A stretch of DNA of 36,048 nt from an uncultured Pelagibacteraceae bacterium (GTDB taxonomy: Bacteria > Pseudomonadota > Alphaproteobacteria > Pelagibacterales > Pelagibacteraceae): the NCBI GenBank assembly GCA_902629215.1, contig CACOQC010000010.1, positions 1 through 36,048 on the forward strand, given 5' to 3'. Position numbers and translations under genes: made by a program. The notes beneath the pieces were generated by a model. That model made no database searches and was not told where the DNA came from. It worked only from the letters and a program-made list of their open reading frames with translations. Positions 3,347 through 12,633 of the stretch are shown here, piece by piece (within the stretch, counting starts at the first letter, position 1; each line of letters opens with the position of its first letter).

Positions 3347-4348
3347 GTGTCTGATCAATTTAAAGCCTTAATTCTTAATCAAAAAGGTGAGGACTTTACT
3401 AGAGAAGTTAAGTCCATAGATAAAAGTTTTTTAAAGCATGGTGATGTAACTGTTAAAGTTGATTATTCAGATTTAAATTTTAAAGATGGAATGATTTTAA
3501 AAAATGGTGGAAGGTTAGTAAAAGAATTTCCGCATATTCCAGGTATAGATTTTTCAGGAACTGTTTTAGAAAGTGAAAATTCAAAGTTTAAATCAGGAGA
3601 TGAGGTAATATTGACTGGTTTTAGAGTCGGAGAAATTTTTTATGGGGGATATTCACAAATTGCAAAAGTTAATGGTGATTTTTTAGTTAAGAAGCCAAAA
3701 AATTTAACATCCAAACAAGCAATGATACTCGGAACTGCTGGTTTTACATCTTTAATGGCTGCATTTGCAATTAAAGCAAGAGAGGAAATATTACTTGGTG
3801 AAAAAATAAATAGTGTTTTAGTTACAGGTGCTACTGGTGGTGTAGGAAGTATAGCTGTTATTGCATTGAGTAAACTTGGATATAATGTAACTGCTGTAAC
3901 TGGAAAGGACTCTAAAGCTGATTATTTAAAATCACTAGGTGCAAAAAGTGTTATAAATAGAGCTGAATTTGATAAAGATCCAAGACTTATTGATAAAGGA
4001 TTATGGGATGGTGTTGTAGATACTGTTGGGGGAAAAATATTGGCTAACGCAATTGTTCAAACTAATCCAAATGGAATTATAGCAGTTTGTGGAAATGCAA
4101 ATACTAATGAACTAAACACCAGTGTAATCCCTTTTATGTTAAGAGGAATTAAGTTATGGGGTATGGACTCTGCTAATTGCAGCATTAAACGAAGAGAGTT
4201 TATTTGGAGTGAGGCAGCTAATTTAGTTGATTTTAGTTTACTTGAAGGATCTGTTCAAACCGTAAGTTTAGAGGAATTAATTGAAACTTATCCTAAAATT
4301 TTAAAAGGTGAAATTTCAGGAAGAGTTTTGGTTGATTTAAACAAATAA
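3347..4348 (+). CDS. acuI: AcuI/YhdH-type zinc-independent MDR oxidoreductase (acryloyl-CoA reductase)
   Basis: A 333-residue medium-chain dehydrogenase/reductase of the YhdH/AcuI group. These use NADPH to reduce acryloyl-CoA to propionyl-CoA, detoxifying the acrylate arising from DMSP breakdown in marine bacteria. Seen in the sequence: an N-terminal GroES-like domain with HIPGIDFSGTV (63-73), a GFRVGE segment, and the Rossmann motif VTGATGGVGS (159-168). The catalytic-zinc Cys/His set of true alcohol dehydrogenases is absent, as expected. The start is GTG at 3347, 8 nt after folE; the stop overlaps the ATG of the LysR gene by 1 nt (TAATG). The acryloyl-CoA role is inferred from family; a general quinone-reductase-like role is the alternative. 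Confidence 0.85.
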   Translation: MSDQFKALILNQKGEDFTREVKSIDKSFLKHGDVTVKVDYSDLNFKDGMILKNGGRLVKEFPHIPGIDFSGTVLESENSKFKSGDEVILTGFRVGEIFYGGYSQIAKVNGDFLVKKPKNLTSKQAMILGTAGFTSLMAAFAIKAREEILLGEKINSVLVTGATGGVGSIAVIALSKLGYNVTAVTGKDSKADYLKSLGAKSVINRAEFDKDPRLIDKGLWDGVVDTVGGKILANAIVQTNPNGIIAVCGNANTNELNTSVIPFMLRGIKLWGMDSANCSIKRREFIWSEAANLVDFSLLEGSVQTVSLEELIETYPKILKGEISGRVLVDLNK

Positions 4349-5238: not shown

Positions 5239-5284
5239 TTTTCGCCTAAATCGACCACAACTAGAGGGTGCGACATAGTTGCGA

Positions 5285-5313
5285 TTGATAATCATTATCA
5301 TTGCGAATAATTA
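5285..5313 (+). promoter_or_regulatory. Probable promoter of the ferric-binding-protein gene
   Basis: A TTGATA hexamer (5285-5290) is followed after 17 nt by TAATTA (5308-5313), a fair sigma-70-like arrangement 40-70 nt upstream of the ATG at 5354. Both elements are overlapped by Fur-type boxes. A second possible pair, TTGCGA (5301-5306) and TAATTA (5325-5330) with an 18-nt spacer, is also present, so the exact start site is open. Confidence 0.5.
5286..5300. promoter_or_regulatory. Fur-type box 1 (perfect 7-1-7 palindrome)
   Basis: The 15 bases TGATAATCATTATCA form a perfect 7-1-7 inverted repeat, identical to the classical Fur core (TGATAATnATTATCA). It lies over the putative -35 element upstream of the ferric-binding-protein gene, where a bound iron-loaded repressor would block transcription. 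Iron-responsive control follows from the motif and the downstream gene. Confidence 0.85.
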
Positions 5314-5322
5314 TCATTATCA
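5308..5322. promoter_or_regulatory. Fur-type box 2 (degenerate left half)
   Basis: TAATTATCATTATCA keeps the right half-site of box 1 exactly (ATTATCA) while the left half matches at 5 of 7 positions. Its centre (5315) is 22 bp from that of box 1 (5293), about two helical turns, so two dimers could bind on the same face. It covers the putative -10 element. Confidence 0.65.
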
Positions 5323-5353
5323 AATAATTATGCGGAAGAACACGGAGAAATAA

Positions 5354-6382
5354 ATGAGAAAAATATCAATTTTGACATTAATCGTGTCTTTATTTGTTTC
5401 AGCTTTTGCTGTTGCAGATGAAGTTAACGTTTTTAATGCAAGACACTATAAAGCAGATTCTGAGCTTTATTCTAAGTTTACAAATATGACTGGTATTAAA
5501 GTTAATTTGATAAATGGAAAATCAGGTGCTTTAGAGAAAAGAATTCTTAGCGAAGGCGCAGATTCTTCAGCTGACCTATATATAACTGCGGACGCTGGAA
5601 GATGTGGTGCTATGGATTCTAAAGGTGCGCTTCAAGGTGGTTTATCATCTAAAGCTATCAAAGAAGCTGTTCCTGCAAGTTTTAGAACAAGCAAATGGGT
5701 TGGAATAGCAAAAAGAGCAAGAATAATTTATTATTCACCTGAAAGAGTTACAGGTGCTGAATTATCTGGAATGACTTATGAAGGTCTAGCTGATCCTAAA
5801 TGGAAAGGTAGATTAGTAATTAGAAAATCTAGTAACATTTATAATAAGTCTCTTGTAGCATCATTAATTAAAAATAATGGAAAAGCTGCAACAGCTGCAT
5901 GGGCTGAAGGGGTTGTTGCTAACATGGCAAGAACACCAACAGGTAATGATAGAGCTCAAATCATGGCGGTAGCAGCTGGCGAAGCTGATATTGCTGTTGC
6001 TAACACTTATTACTTAGCACTTATGTTGTCTGGTAAAAAAGGTGCAGAACAGCAAGAAGCTGCTAAAAAAGTTAAAGCTTTTTTCCCTAATCAAAATGAT
6101 AGAGGAACGCATATGAATGTTAGTTGTGCAGCTTTAGTAAAAGGAGCACCTAATAAAGCTAATGCTATCAAACTTGTTGAGTTTTTATTAACTCCAAGTT
6201 CTCAAGAGCATTTTACAAATAATACTTTTGAGTTTCCAATGATTGATGGTGTTTCGCCAAGTCCATTAGTTGTAAATAATTTAGGATTAGATTTCAAACA
6301 AGATATGAAAACTAAACTAGCTTCTTATGGAAAAAATCAAGCTGCTGCAGTAGAGGTAATGACAGCCGCAGGTTGGAAATAA
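5354..6382 (+). CDS. fbpA: Ferric iron ABC transporter substrate-binding protein
   Basis: A 342-residue periplasmic iron-binding protein of the FbpA/SfuA/FutA class. It has a signal peptide (MRKISILTLIVSLFVSAFAVA, cleavage near residues 20-22) and the family opening EVNVFNARHY (24-33). The tyrosine pair characteristic of ferric ligands is visible in ANTYYLALM (about 215-223). It would capture Fe(III) in the periplasm and deliver it to the permease/ATPase encoded at 7303-9982. The gene stands apart from those partners and has its own promoter with two Fur boxes, consistent with the binding protein being made in excess under iron limitation. In cultured Pelagibacter the homologous gene is annotated sfuC and is known to respond to iron starvation. 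Confidence 0.93.
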   Translation: MRKISILTLIVSLFVSAFAVADEVNVFNARHYKADSELYSKFTNMTGIKVNLINGKSGALEKRILSEGADSSADLYITADAGRCGAMDSKGALQGGLSSKAIKEAVPASFRTSKWVGIAKRARIIYYSPERVTGAELSGMTYEGLADPKWKGRLVIRKSSNIYNKSLVASLIKNNGKAATAAWAEGVVANMARTPTGNDRAQIMAVAAGEADIAVANTYYLALMLSGKKGAEQQEAAKKVKAFFPNQNDRGTHMNVSCAALVKGAPNKANAIKLVEFLLTPSSQEHFTNNTFEFPMIDGVSPSPLVVNNLGLDFKQDMKTKLASYGKNQAAAVEVMTAAGWK

Positions 6383-6408
6383 GTAAAGTGAAAGAAAAAA
6401 GGAAATTT

Positions 6409-6558
6409 ATGTCTAATATTGATTTGAATAAATCTTCTAAAGCATGTTCCCCATGTAATTTGGAGTGTAAAAAAATCAATAAAAGAATAAATGACAGAAA
6501 AATTTCAGAAATTAAAACTAAGGAACTTCCGCATATCCTAAAAGTATTTAATTTCTGA
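6409..6558 (+). CDS. Small Cys-containing ORF downstream of the ferric-binding protein
   Basis: A 49-codon ORF starting at an ATG preceded by AAAAAAGGAAA at good Shine-Dalgarno distance; a TTG at 6373 would extend it backward into the preceding gene and is less likely. The product is basic and hydrophilic, with three cysteines spaced CxxCxxxC near residues 12-19 (CSPCNLEC). It begins 26 nt after the binding-protein stop and ends 15 nt before the first of two hairpins, so it would be co-transcribed with the Fur-controlled gene. No family is recognised. A small metal-binding or iron-responsive role is only a guess, and it could be a chance ORF. Confidence 0.4.
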   Translation: MSNIDLNKSSKACSPCNLECKKINKRINDRKISEIKTKELPHILKVFNF

Positions 6559-6572
6559 TTTTCTCTGGCAGT

Positions 6573-6612
6573 GTCCATGCTTTGGTAGGTGTCTCCTTCC
6601 TGAAGCATGGAC
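6573..6612 (+). ncRNA. Hairpin 1 of a twin stem-loop element
   Basis: GTCCATGCTT (6573-6582) pairs perfectly with AAGCATGGAC (6603-6612), enclosing a 20-nt loop that contains TGTCTCCTT (6590-6598). No T-run follows, so it is not a standard intrinsic terminator. It may be part of a small RNA, a 3' end stabiliser for the iron-binding-protein transcript, or a leader structure of the peroxiredoxin mRNA. The strand is inferred from the surrounding genes. Confidence 0.55.
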
Positions 6613-6640
6613 ATTAAAGAATTTCGTTTCTCTTCTGTTG

Positions 6641-6693
6641 AAAGAGTGTTCACTGTGATCAAGATGTCTCCTTAATTATAATGAACACTCTTT
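6641..6693 (+). ncRNA. Hairpin 2 of a twin stem-loop element
   Basis: AAAGAGTGTTCA (6641-6652) pairs perfectly over 12 bp with TGAACACTCTTT (6682-6693). The 29-nt loop again contains TGTCTCCTT (6665-6673), the same nine bases as the loop of hairpin 1, although the stems are unrelated. The CUCCUU core resembles the anti-Shine-Dalgarno end of 16S rRNA. The peroxiredoxin ATG is at 6714, 20 nt downstream. Confidence 0.55.
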
Positions 6694-6713
6694 GAACAGA
6701 AAAAACAACGATT

Positions 6714-7262
6714 ATGAAAACTGGTTATAAATTAAATAAGGTTATTTTTAAATTAAGAGAAGGTGATAAAGCCAGTAATCATAATGAATGCCCCATCGGT
6801 GGAAAATGGGTTGAAAAGACTACTGATGATTTTTTTAAGAATAAGAGAGTAGTTTTATTTAGTTTACCTGGTGCTTTCACACCAACATGTTCTTCATTAC
6901 AACTACCAGGATTTGAGAATAGTTGTGATCGTTTTAAAAAATTAGGTATAGACGAAATTTATTGTTGTTCAGTAAATGATGCATACACGATGAATGCTTG
7001 GTCTGAAAAAATGAAGATTAAAAATGTAAAATTTATTCCTGATGGTAATGGATATTTTACAAAACAAATGGGGATGTTAATTTCAAAAGATCATTTGGGC
7101 TTTGGTAATAGGAGCTGGAGATACATGGCGGTTATTACTGATGGAATAGTTGAAAAATGGTGGGAGGAGCCTGGAATAAACAATGATGGATCTGATGATG
7201 ATCCATACACTGAAACAATGCCCGAGAAATGCTTGGAATATCTTGCATCGGGTAGTGAGTAA
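6714..7262 (+). CDS. Peroxiredoxin (Prx5-like, AhpC/TSA superfamily)
   Basis: A 182-residue thiol peroxidase reducing hydrogen peroxide and organic peroxides. The peroxidatic Cys59 lies in LPGAFTPTCSSLQLPGF, the Prx5-type active site, and the conserved ITDGIVEKWWEEPG segment follows near 140-155. Further Cys at CCSVND (about 88-93) and near the C-terminus could act in resolution. It sits between the genes for the iron-binding protein and the iron permease. That fits a need to control peroxide when ferrous iron enters, but the link is inferred from context. Its upstream region contains the twin hairpins rather than a readable promoter. Confidence 0.9.
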   Translation: MKTGYKLNKVIFKLREGDKASNHNECPIGGKWVEKTTDDFFKNKRVVLFSLPGAFTPTCSSLQLPGFENSCDRFKKLGIDEIYCCSVNDAYTMNAWSEKMKIKNVKFIPDGNGYFTKQMGMLISKDHLGFGNRSWRYMAVITDGIVEKWWEEPGINNDGSDDDPYTETMPEKCLEYLASGSE

Positions 7263-7302
7263 ATCTATTCTTAAAACATAAATTAATATATAAGACCCAA
7301 AA

Positions 7303-8928
7303 ATGTCTAAAAATTTAAATGTTTGGTTTTTTCTGTCATTAATAATTTCTTTATTTGTTTTAATTCCTATTATTACAGTTTTTAGTAGTTTTTTTGATGA
7401 CACATCTAATTATTATGTGATTTTAAAAGAGACTTTCTTAATTGAATACATCATTAATTCATCAATTTTATTATTTTTTGTATTACTTTTAACATTCTTA
7501 CTAGGAACAGGTACTGCGTATTTAGTTTCATTTTATAATTTTCCGTTAAGTAATTTTTTTAAATGGGCGCTTATATTATCTTTTGCCGTGCCACCATATA
7601 TTTACGCATATTCATTAACAGCGTTTTTTGAAAATTACGGTACAGCATATTCTATTTTAAAAAGTTTATTTGGTGATAATAACTACAATCAAAATATTCC
7701 AAAATTTGACGGTATGTTTGGTGCTATTTTATCAATCACTTTTTCTTTATATGCATATGTATATATACTTGCCAGAGCTTCTTTTTTGTATCAATCACAA
7801 AATTTAATAGAACTTGGAAAAAATTTAGGATTTACAAAATTTAAATCTTTTTACAAAATAATTCTACCAGCATCACGTCCAGCAATAGTTGCAGGTTTAT
7901 CATTGGTAGCAATGGAAACTTTAGCTGAATTTGGAGCTGTTGACTTCTTTTCTATAAATACATTAACAACAGGTATTTATAACTCCTGGATAGCTTTTGA
8001 TGATTTAGCCTTTGCTAATAGATTATCTTTTTTTCTTTTAATATTTATTTTTGCACTTTTTATAATAGAAAATTTTTCAAGAAAAAACGCAAAATATCAT
8101 TTTAATAGTAAAGGAGGTTTTAAACAAAAAGAAAAATTTCAACTTACAGGAAGTAATTCTTTTTTTGCATTTATATTTTGTTTCTTTGTATTCTTTATGA
8201 GTTTTTTATTTCCATTAAGTCAGATGTTGTATTGGACAATAAAATTTCCTGAAAATTTTTTTGATTTACAAATATTTGATCTCTTAATGAATACTATTTA
8301 TTTAGTAGTATTATCAAGTTTTATTTTGATAATATTTTCACTAGTATCTAATTATGGAAATAGAGTTTCTAATAATAAGATATTGAACATTTTTTCTACT
8401 TTATCTATTTCAGGTTATGCAATTCCGGGAGTAATTTTAGCAATTGCATTTATATCTTTCATAGCTTGGTTTGATGAAAGTGTAGTGAAATCTTTAGGTT
8501 TGTATTCTATAAAGAAAATATTTATAGGTTCAATTTTGGGATTAGTTATGGTTTATTTCATAAGATTTTATTCATTAGCATTTAATGGAATAAAATCAGG
8601 TTATGAAAAAATTAATATATCGGTTGATGAAAGCTCATATTTACTTGGTTATTCTAAAAGAAAAACGTTCATGAATATTCATGTTCCCTTTTTAAGAAAT
8701 TCACTTTTATTTATTGCAATACTGATTTCTTTAGAAATAATTAGGGAATTACCAATTACCTTAATTTTAAGACCTTTTAATTTTGAAACCTTTGCAACTA
8801 CAGCTTATATTTCTGCCTCAGAAGATTTGTTAGAAGCTGCAGCAGTTCCTTCATTATTTTTAATTTTAATTGCTGCATCATTCATTATAATAACTTCCAA
8901 ATATATATTAAGAGATAATGACAAATAA
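7303..8928 (+). CDS. fbpB: Ferric iron ABC transporter permease (fused double domain)
   Basis: A 541-residue inner-membrane protein with roughly twelve hydrophobic segments in two homologous halves, as in FbpB/SfuB. Each half carries a BPD-type EAA loop that contacts the ATPase: ELGKNLGFTKFKSFYKIILP near 170-190 and SSYLLGYSKRKTFMNIHVPF near 445-465. It forms the channel for iron released by the binding protein. The stop overlaps the ATPase gene start by 11 nt, showing close coupling. It starts 40 nt after the peroxiredoxin gene and has no obvious promoter of its own. Confidence 0.93.
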   Translation: MSKNLNVWFFLSLIISLFVLIPIITVFSSFFDDTSNYYVILKETFLIEYIINSSILLFFVLLLTFLLGTGTAYLVSFYNFPLSNFFKWALILSFAVPPYIYAYSLTAFFENYGTAYSILKSLFGDNNYNQNIPKFDGMFGAILSITFSLYAYVYILARASFLYQSQNLIELGKNLGFTKFKSFYKIILPASRPAIVAGLSLVAMETLAEFGAVDFFSINTLTTGIYNSWIAFDDLAFANRLSFFLLIFIFALFIIENFSRKNAKYHFNSKGGFKQKEKFQLTGSNSFFAFIFCFFVFFMSFLFPLSQMLYWTIKFPENFFDLQIFDLLMNTIYLVVLSSFILIIFSLVSNYGNRVSNNKILNIFSTLSISGYAIPGVILAIAFISFIAWFDESVVKSLGLYSIKKIFIGSILGLVMVYFIRFYSLAFNGIKSGYEKINISVDESSYLLGYSKRKTFMNIHVPFLRNSLLFIAILISLEIIRELPITLILRPFNFETFATTAYISASEDLLEAAAVPSLFLILIAASFIIITSKYILRDNDK

Positions 8929-9982
8929 AAATTTTTTTGAAATTGAAAATGTTGATTTTTATGTTGGTGGAAAAGCTAAGGTAAAAGATGTATCTTTTAA
9001 AATTGAAAATGAAGGTGATATAATTTGTCTTTTAGGGCCTTCTGGGATAGGAAAAACTACCATTTTAAGAACAATTGCTGGTTTGGAAAAAATTGATAAA
9101 GGATCAATAACACTTAATGGGAGAATCATTTCATCAAATGAGATTAATATAGAACCAGAAGATAGAAATATTTCTCTTGCCTTCCAAGATAATAGTTTAT
9201 TTCCACATTATACTGTTGAAAAAAATATATTGTTAGGTGCGGAGAGAAATAAAGAGAAAAAAGATAAAAAGATAAGTTTAAAACAAATAGTTGATTTACT
9301 TGATATATTTCACATACTTAATAAATATCCACATCAAATTAGCGCTGGTGAAGCCCAAAGAGCTTCATTAGCAAGATCTTTAATTACTCAGCCGGATCTT
9401 TTATTGCTTGATGAGCCTTTATCAAACGTTGATCAGAGTTTTAAAGAAGAAATTCAAGTTAGACTTAAAAAAATTTTAAACCAATTAAAAATTACAACAA
9501 TCATAGTCACTCATGATTCATATGAGGCATTTTACTTGGGAACTAAATGTGGGATTATTTTAGATCAACAACTTAAACAGTTTGATGATCCTTATAAAGT
9601 CTATCATTTTCCAAATTCAGTTGAAGTAGTTAATTTTTTAAATAGAGGTATTTTGATACCTGCTAAAGTTACAGGTAAGAATACTTTAGAAAATTGGGAT
9701 TTAGGAACGATTGAGGGTAATTTTATTAAAGAATATCCAACAGGCTCTAACGTACAATTATTACTTCAACCTGAAGATTTAGAGCACGATGATACTAGTA
9801 ACTTAAAACTCGAAGTAGTTGATAGAAAATTTAGGGGCACTAATTTTATATATACTTTAAAAACACCAAGTAATACTTTTATACCTGTATTTGTACATTC
9901 ACATCATATTCATCAACATGAAGTAGATGAAAAATTTGGAATCAAAAGACCGATTCATATTGATCATATAGTTTGCTTTTAA
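8918..9982 (+). CDS. fbpC: Ferric iron ABC transporter ATP-binding protein
   Basis: A 354-residue ABC ATPase. Walker A is GPSGIGKTT (40-48), the signature is ISAGEAQRASLARS (141-154), and Walker B is LLLLDEPLSNVD (161-172); the H-loop is in VTHDSYEAF. Residues after about 235 form a TOBE-like regulatory domain as in FbpC/PotA-type subunits. It powers the double-domain permease whose gene it overlaps by 11 nt. The order permease-ATPase with the binding protein upstream is the usual iron system, here interrupted by the peroxiredoxin. The substrate is inferred from the binding protein and promoter. Confidence 0.93.
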   Translation: MTNKNFFEIENVDFYVGGKAKVKDVSFKIENEGDIICLLGPSGIGKTTILRTIAGLEKIDKGSITLNGRIISSNEINIEPEDRNISLAFQDNSLFPHYTVEKNILLGAERNKEKKDKKISLKQIVDLLDIFHILNKYPHQISAGEAQRASLARSLITQPDLLLLDEPLSNVDQSFKEEIQVRLKKILNQLKITTIIVTHDSYEAFYLGTKCGIILDQQLKQFDDPYKVYHFPNSVEVVNFLNRGILIPAKVTGKNTLENWDLGTIEGNFIKEYPTGSNVQLLLQPEDLEHDDTSNLKLEVVDRKFRGTNFIYTLKTPSNTFIPVFVHSHHIHQHEVDEKFGIKRPIHIDHIVCF

Positions 9983-12129: not shown

Positions 12130-12633
12130 ATGAAAATAATCAAAATTATATTCACTCTTTTACTTTTAAATTCACTAGCTTATGCAGATAAGAATATGAA
12201 AATTGGTTCAAAAGGTAATGAAACTGATGTTACAAGGGTTATAAAAGTTGTTATGTATGATAATTATTATGAACCAAGTTCATTTCAGATTAAAAAAGGT
12301 GAAACAGTTAAGTTTGAAGTTGAAAACGCAGGCATGCTTGTTCATGAATTCAATATTGCAAATAAAATGATGCATATGAAACACCAGCCAGAGATGGTAA
12401 AAATGGTTGAGAATGGAATTCTTCTTGCTTTCTCTATTGATAAAGAAAAAATGAAGAAGATGGCAAAAATGGATAAGTCAATGGGTCATTCACACAGCAA
12501 CAGTGTTTTGTTAGAGCCGAAACAAAAAGGAGACATCATTTGGAAATTTGATAATGCGATCAACATTGAAGTAGCTTGTAATGTTCCTGGTCATTATCAA
12601 GCTGGAATGATTGCTAAAGTTAATATAAAATAA
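12130..12633 (+). CDS. Periplasmic cupredoxin-domain protein
   Basis: A 167-residue exported protein (signal peptide to about residue 19, LNSLAYA). The cupredoxin core begins at VIKVVMYDNYYEPSSFQI. All four type 1 copper ligands can be placed: His72 in MLVHEFNI, then Cys150, His155 and Met160 in ACNVPGHYQAGM. Between them lies a Met/His-rich insert (about 80-123: MMHMKHQPEM, MKKMAKMDKSMGHSH) that could bind additional copper. Such plastocyanin-like proteins act in copper handling or electron transfer. The next gene, a DUF4396 membrane protein, starts 4 nt after its stop, suggesting a joint copper-related function. Confidence 0.85.
   Translation: MKIIKIIFTLLLLNSLAYADKNMKIGSKGNETDVTRVIKVVMYDNYYEPSSFQIKKGETVKFEVENAGMLVHEFNIANKMMHMKHQPEMVKMVENGILLAFSIDKEKMKKMAKMDKSMGHSHSNSVLLEPKQKGDIIWKFDNAINIEVACNVPGHYQAGMIAKVNIK

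Follow-up and report, generated by a model that had tools for sequence, protein, structure and literature searches.

The sfu iron-transport locus and its twin hairpins

The analysed window, i.e. the whole stretch of 36,048 nt from contig CACOQC010000010.1 of an uncultured Pelagibacteraceae bacterium, carries an iron-transport gene cluster in the order sfuC/fbpA, a small ORF of 49 aa, two hairpins, a peroxiredoxin gene, sfuB, sfuA and azlC. The names sfuA, sfuB and sfuC follow their use in the available parts of PMC2864753. The features considered in this study are as follows.

5285..5323, plus strand: two Fur-box-like GATAAT/ATTATC repeats, resembling GATAATCATTATC, upstream of sfuC, with promoter-like hits in the same place
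5354..6382, plus strand: sfuC/fbpA, Fe(III)-type solute-binding protein of an ABC transporter (Pfam SBP_bac_8, E 9e-18; SBP_bac_6)
6409..6558, plus strand: small ORF of 49 aa with a CxPCxxEC motif, between sfuC and the hairpins
6570..6615, plus strand: hairpin 1 (hp1), from the predicted fold and orthologues
6633..6701, plus strand: hairpin 2 (hp2), from the predicted fold and covariance model R1
6714..7262, plus strand: peroxiredoxin (Redoxin/AhpC-TSA; Pfam Redoxin, E 1.1e-22), found at this place only in some relatives
7303..8928, plus strand: sfuB/fbpB, permease (Pfam BPD_transp_1)
8918..9982, plus strand: sfuA/fbpC, ATPase (Pfam ABC_tran)
Apex sequence: AAGAUGUCUCCUU

We take the repeats at 5285–5323 to be putative Fur boxes. 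GATAAT hexamers have also been described in PMC2864753, the available parts of which present sfuC as an iron-induced gene that dominates the iron response of Pelagibacter; under iron limitation the mRNAs of sfuC, sfuB and sfuA rose 16-, 10- and 5-fold, respectively, in a Pelagibacter strain. The proposal of the first-pass annotation that the hairpins lie 3' of a Fur-controlled gene is thus plausible.

The small ORF, which encodes a small cysteine protein within the iron operon, ends with a stop codon 11 nt before the first hairpin. It matched no Pfam family above the cut-off, and was detected in 203 of 300 genomes of the same genus. Across the order, 141 of 247 genomes had it (2 of 10 genera), and it also occurs in genus g4. 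The relatives that carry names belong to SAR11, some as uncultured Pelagibacteraceae and others as Ca. Pelagibacter ubique.

The segment 6550–6720 was predicted to fold at −64 kcal/mol (z −7.9); its 200 dinucleotide shuffles averaged −33 kcal/mol (sd 3.9), and not one of them folded as well. The fold consists of two separate hairpins 3' of sfuC/fbpA, both displaying TGTCTCCTT at the apex, which confirmed the earlier description of twin hairpins with a shared loop. The perfect stems of 10 and 12 bp given in that description required correction in their extents: hp1 has a perfect outer stem of 14 bp, and the stem of hp2 comprises 7 + 12 + 6 + 3 bp with single mismatches between the blocks. In hp1 the 9-mer occupies positions 6590–6598 and the predicted apical loop is UGUCU (6590–6594), closed by AGG/CCU, while in hp2 it occupies 6665–6673, with a predicted heptaloop AUGUCUC (6664–6670) closed by AAG/CUU. 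Since CCU or CUU pairs with the upstream AGG or AAG in the predicted fold, TGTCTCCTT is single-stranded only in part and half of the CUCCUU core lies in the closing helix. Gapped alignment of the arms of hp1 with those of hp2 was no better than that of shuffled arms (p 0.10 and 0.31). In a search of Rfam 15 no family exceeded the gathering cut-off in the hairpin region, and the only hit elsewhere in the window was a tRNA. Of the 20 sub-threshold matches within 6380–6760, 16 were to microRNA models, which score any long hairpin.

Hairpins and loop classes among relatives

The comparative set comprised 192 loci (the window included), oriented on sfuB or on the small ORF. Four loci in which the small ORF is absent (L132, L143, L147, L148) were dropped, and the remaining 188 yielded 150 distinct intergenic regions; a tree of sfuB was built from 147 of them, the sfuB of the other three being too short. 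The first 130 nt of the 150 regions had a mean fold z of −4.0, with z < −2 in 140, and for 120 regions none of 60 shuffles folded as well. The weakest region, L122 (z +0.4), has lost the strong hairpin, and the hairpin of L207 is weak.

When all stems were aligned together with MAFFT, the gaps were too many to allow a generic covariance model. Among nine single-hairpin orthologues, 4 of 20 pairs change on both sides with 98.3% of the cells paired, and the covariation score was equalled by none of 500 shuffles; the corresponding values for 12 rows of hp2 were 3 of 28 pairs and 95.8%. The 23 of 28 covarying pairs of alignment A4 are not evidence, as its 49 matches come from both strands with antisense copies mixed in. 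The first-pass annotation had named stem covariation and loop conservation in relatives as its check: covariation was found, at a modest level, and the loop is conserved in some clades and not in others.

The two strands were compared by counting G-T and A-C oppositions in the stems, scored alike. The 150 regions contained 281 G-U against 136 A-C oppositions (G-U prevailing in 90 loci, A-C in 25, with 35 equal). In 51 clade representatives, picked by ourselves, the counts were 110 and 66 (27 loci against 8, with 16 equal; sign test p 0.002). The extended hp2 helix of the window itself goes the other way (2 G-U, 4 A-C). Across the set, the excess of G-U favours an RNA read from the plus strand.

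The 147 rows of the sfuB tree fall into several loop classes: (i) TCTCC apices (59 rows), (ii) TTACCC apices (38 rows), (iii) GGGGAT or GGAGAT apices (21 rows), and (iv) the U-rich, GNRA-like or other loops of the remaining clades. Among the 147 first hairpins, TCTCC occurs in 52 and TGTCTCCTT in 22, where composition alone would give 1.25 and 0.009, respectively; as the rows are related, neither ratio is a probability. The 9-mer is mostly confined to one large part of the tree.

The apex of hp2 in the window was compared with those of 22 other rows, picked for TCTCC. Eight of these loci, which belong to other clades and have a single hairpin (L019, L025, L045, L046, L029, L053, L051, L052), keep the apex AG[A/T]TGTCTCCTT; their 12-nt apices are 92–100% identical to that of hp2, 9 of the 12 letters being given by the choice of the 9-mer. 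The same eight loci differ from the window at 0.55–0.64 of the 4-fold degenerate sites, saturation being 0.615. The apices of the hp2 relatives L188, L194 and L003 are 92, 92 and 75% identical, and clades further away retain the TCTCC core followed by CT or CTT (apex identity 50–83%).

The stems have diverged further than the apices, without becoming wholly unrelated between species. When the arms of the eight loci were aligned with those of hp2 with gaps allowed, shuffled arms were surpassed (p ≤ 0.05) by three of the eight 5' arms and by none of the 3' arms. The stems of the hp2 family (L188, L194, L003) are plainly related, that of L188 being offset by a shift of one base, and for hp1 of the window both arms are similar to their counterparts in L019, L053 and L074. 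A stem base of the form GTGYYC...GRRCAC is kept in 67 of the 150 regions (84 with a looser pattern). The notion of unrelated stems thus holds for hp1 and hp2 of the window, and between species it has to be tempered by the residual similarity of some arms. Because stems turn over while their pairing is kept, and the apex persists past a saturated synonymous distance, the comparison supports the earlier suggestion of selection on the loop in a large part of the genus.

The presence of the same loop in both hairpins is a feature of the window's own clade, since the loops of hp1 vary: among 14 distinct loci with a TCTCC second hairpin, the exact 9-mer is found in both loops in four (the window, L128, L002, L022), and the other hp1 loops carry another UCUCC (three loci), GGGGAT (six) or something else (one). 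The six twin loci that combine GGGGAU in hp1 with GUCUCC in hp2 might form a putative kissing pair, which is inapplicable to the window because its two loops are alike. The loop of L065 and L070 is ATGGAGAT, and its reverse complement is ATCTCCAT. It looks like a TCTCC apex that was flipped within the palindrome, and GGGGAT loops might have been derived from such an inversion.

The window contains three copies of TGTCTCCTT compared with 0.20 expected, the third lying at 12527 on the minus strand, and the whole of its own genome contains seven. Of the four sites outside the window, three showed no stem around the motif when folded; in the fourth (L017), which is antisense to an ORF, the motif tips a weak stem (−7.5 kcal/mol for a piece of 99 nt). 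With both strands read, covariance model R1 of hp2 matched the own genome at the sfu locus alone; the search, in which the filters were stricter and no more than 32 candidates were scored in each genome, gave matches in 5 of 151 genomes, always at the sfu locus.

Hairpins downstream of binding-protein genes are not restricted to sfuC. Among five binding-protein matches per genome in the own genome (G000) and one relative (G149), three kinds besides sfuC are followed by a clear hairpin (L235/236, L239/240, L241/242, the last two with T-runs); L237/238 has an AT-rich hairpin, and L245, a match below the family cut-off, has a downstream hairpin too. None of these other loci carries TCTCC at the hairpin tip. 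A hairpin in this position thus reflects a more general habit, and the loop is special to sfuC among the binding-protein genes sampled in G000 and G149. In the sister genus g4, a clear hairpin follows the small ORF in 6 of 12 fetched loci, as read by eye from the folds (L226, in which no frame was found, was left out), and a TCTCC apex was seen in none of them.

Candidate partners of the loop and rival explanations

The first-pass annotation had suggested an anti-Shine-Dalgarno action of the loops. In its fullest form this would be a small RNA derived from the 3' UTR of the iron-induced sfuC mRNA, its two CUCCUU loops blocking the Shine-Dalgarno (SD) sequences of other mRNAs. The loop does resemble an anti-SD, the apex is conserved on changing stems, and repeated anti-SD loops on variable stems have an alphaproteobacterial precedent in SmelA075/SmelA099 (PMC3927594, available parts). 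However, the complementary sites AAGGAGAC are not enriched in the own genome, where 18 were found compared with 33 for the reversed control. A single one of the 18 is a credible start site (ORFs below 60 aa not being counted), in front of a long ORF that we take to be gcvP-like; the other sites include the hairpins' own antisense and one position inside a presumably fusA-like gene. The search for complementary sites near start codons thus spoke against this action, as do the pairing of CCU/CUU in the predicted fold, the many clades whose loops have no anti-SD character, and a terminator scan that reported none at the hairpins. We consider such a small RNA unlikely. As for the anti-SD of 16S rRNA, GGATCACCTCCTT was absent from the own genome, the assembly of which is incomplete, and ATCACCTCCTT was present in one of four relatives, with flanks that do not identify 16S.

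A pseudoknot in cis, in which the loop would pair with the ribosome site of either sfuC or the following gene and so lower its translation, draws its support mainly from the TTACCC class. Loop and leader were regarded as matching when their pairing ranked at or below 0.05 among shuffled leaders. By this measure TTACCC loops beat the shuffles at 12 of 25 loci with the sfuB leader (AGGGTAAA) and at 13 of 31 with the 80 nt upstream of sfuC, where nine perfect pairs (TAGGGTAAA) are formed in many cases. The loop variant TATTACCC is accompanied by GGGTAATA, and GGGTAA or GGTAAT, a pattern picked post hoc, marks the sfuB leader at 24 of the 38 loci with a TTACCC loop and at none of 109 others. Against this, the co-change of loop and leader amounts to only 2–3 independent changes on the tree, which is not significant, and with peroxiredoxin as the next gene none of 13 TTACCC loops beat the shuffled leaders.

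For the TCTCC class, to which the window belongs, none of 50 loops matched the leader of the next gene where this is sfuB, and 1 of 16 did so where it is the peroxiredoxin; the one case is L198, in which the peroxiredoxin ribosome site AAGGAGACAA (~3390–3405) is fully complementary to the locus's own hp2 loop TTGTCTCCTT. With the 80 nt upstream of sfuC, 9 of 33 loops matched, or 7 of 33 in a repeat with 200 shuffles. Three of these seven pair well at the sfuC SD (L188, L171, L024; AGGAGATAA), three at 62–80 nt upstream (L173, L020, L022) and one elsewhere (L044); the site at 62–80 nt, which in the window precedes the Fur boxes, is probably outside the mRNA. When leaders were swapped, TCTCC loops showed little preference for their own sfuC leaders over foreign ones (−8.5 for own, group means −7.2 to −9.4). 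The two loops of the window did not rise above shuffles with its sfuC leader (ranks 0.24 and 0.37), and a pseudoknot in the window is already disfavoured. As an explanation of the element as a whole, we hold it to be quite improbable.

Partial termination or attenuation of transcription between sfuC and the genes that follow would agree with the strength of the hairpins, and with the declining mRNA induction along the operon in the Pelagibacter strain (PMC2864753, available parts). However, neither hairpin combines a GC-rich stem with a T run, hp2 is followed by an A-tract, and the scan mentioned above reported no terminator at either; we give this possibility little weight, about as much as the pseudoknot. 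Long palindromes whose arms change together could also belong to a mobile or DNA-level repeat with no RNA function. The fixed position after the small ORF and the excess of G-U over A-C in the stems argue against this very improbable alternative, and the mobile repeat was rejected on the ground that model R1, under the stricter filters, matched the sfu locus only (5 of 151 genomes). Least credible is a leader controlling the peroxiredoxin gene, another proposal of the first-pass annotation: in the window just 12 nt separate the end of hp2 from the peroxiredoxin start codon, but the gene that follows the hairpin region is sfuB in 126 and peroxiredoxin in only 24 of the 150 distinct intergenic regions.

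Several further observations concern the genes and leaders around the element. The peroxiredoxin gene is patchy between sfuC and sfuB; most loci have none, and L020 and L024 have a distant version (~35% identity). In the sfuB leader (7270–7302 in the window) many relatives share the palindromic TTATAAGGCGGATTATAAT, GGCGG being present in 60 of 147 rows, and the sfuC leader of the same relatives often holds TATGCGGAAGAA, so GCGGA is common to the leaders of both genes. In the peroxiredoxin clades the sfuB leader becomes TATATAAGACCC or similar, lacking a clear SD, and is perhaps a short-leader promoter. Loop and sfuB ribosome site match each other in L117, L114, L121, L153 and similar TTACCC loci (TTTACCCT/AGGGTAAA, TATTACCC/GGGTAATA), and in many cases the sfuC leader shares in the match. 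Finally, GGGTGCGACATNNTTGC, which precedes the Fur boxes (~5263–5281 in the window; 62–80 nt before sfuC in L173, L020, L022, L002 and L128) and probably lies outside the mRNA, is partly complementary to the apex of hp2 in close relatives of the window.

Proposed function and comparison with known systems

The twin hairpins form a genuine RNA element, and selection acts on its apex in part of the genus. The interpretation starts from what was computed here, i.e. the presence of the hairpins, stems that change with their pairing kept, a retained apex, a plus-strand bias and no terminator. The reading that we prefer, and to which we would give an even chance, combines an intercistronic barrier, proposed by analogy with other operons, that would protect sfuC mRNA with an apex that would serve as a docking site for a partner acting in trans. 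The hairpins would sit inside a single sfuC-(small ORF)-[peroxiredoxin]-sfuB-sfuA mRNA. Once the downstream part of this mRNA is cut or degraded, the stems would halt 3'-5' exonucleases where the sfuC segment ends; sfuC mRNA would then outlast that of sfuB and sfuA, and the binding protein would exceed the permease. The induction values of 16-, 10- and 5-fold for sfuC, sfuB and sfuA are consistent with such protection. A barrier alone would not call for a conserved apex, from which we infer a trans partner: AAG-(A/U)UGUCUC-CUU may have been kept as the docking site of a putative RNA-binding protein or RNA that modulates the protection. This partner cannot be needed throughout the genus, because the apices of several clades (GGGGAT, TTACCC, U-rich, GNRA-like) do not carry the motif.

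A bolder reading, which we advance tentatively and rate as possible rather than probable, sees in the iron operon a module for RNA recognition that is specific to SAR11, and in which apex class and partner switch together between clades. Its classes would be UGUCUCCUU, UUACCC and GGGGAU; the partner of UCUCC would be a putative protein or RNA, and that of the UUACCC class the operon's own sfuC and sfuB leaders. Such a module would couple iron status to how much binding protein is made relative to permease, in a bacterium that ranks among the most abundant of the ocean. The candidate RNA element, recognized by comparison, lies right at the iron-binding-protein gene that dominates the iron response, and an apex that stays fixed in a large part of the genus on a changing stem is a testable recognition signature in a streamlined bacterium.

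A search of the open-licence literature, by title and by passages of text, found no paper about this sfuC-sfuB element. Neither "hairpin" nor "intergenic" is used in the available parts of PMC2864753. The study of Pelagibacter RNA motifs by Meyer et al. 2009 (PMC2704228) is akin to ours in proposing structured RNAs in SAR11 by comparison; in its available parts the sfuC-sfuB interval was not found, and the interval on the other side of sfuC, towards its neighbour SAR11_1239, is listed with no named motif. The Rhizobiales small RNAs with anti-SD loops, SmelA075/SmelA099 (PMC3927594, available parts), resemble the present element in having several hairpins with near-identical CU-rich loops on variable stems, and a loop motif repeated on variable stems was also found here. 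They differ in the loop itself, which is CCUCCUCCC in these RNAs and UGUCUCCUU here, and in that the present element is embedded in an operon. No exact match to CCUCCUCCC occurs in either loop or elsewhere in the window; with one mismatch allowed, there is one site, outside the hairpins (7162–7170, minus strand).

Another alphaproteobacterial intercistronic hairpin, in a different operon, is the puf stem-loop of Rhodobacter capsulatus, which was reportedly described by Chen et al. in 1988 and is thought to set unequal mRNA stability. We know of no conservation of its loop.

The closest likeness is to the protective hairpins of the malE-malF type (PMC5927463, available parts). In the five E. 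coli ABC operons named there, the stabilized gene is always that of the binding protein, and stabilized first genes mostly end at a stable hairpin with no U-tract. The sfu element likewise is a strong hairpin without a U-tract, and in its ABC operon it follows closely on the segment for the binding protein, with the small ORF between them. Differential decay of the operon is known for malE-malF and is proposed here for sfu. The apex conserved on changing stems, the occasional presence of two hairpins and the small ORF in front of the hairpin are features of the element described here, which would thus be an intercistronic hairpin with a conserved recognition loop.
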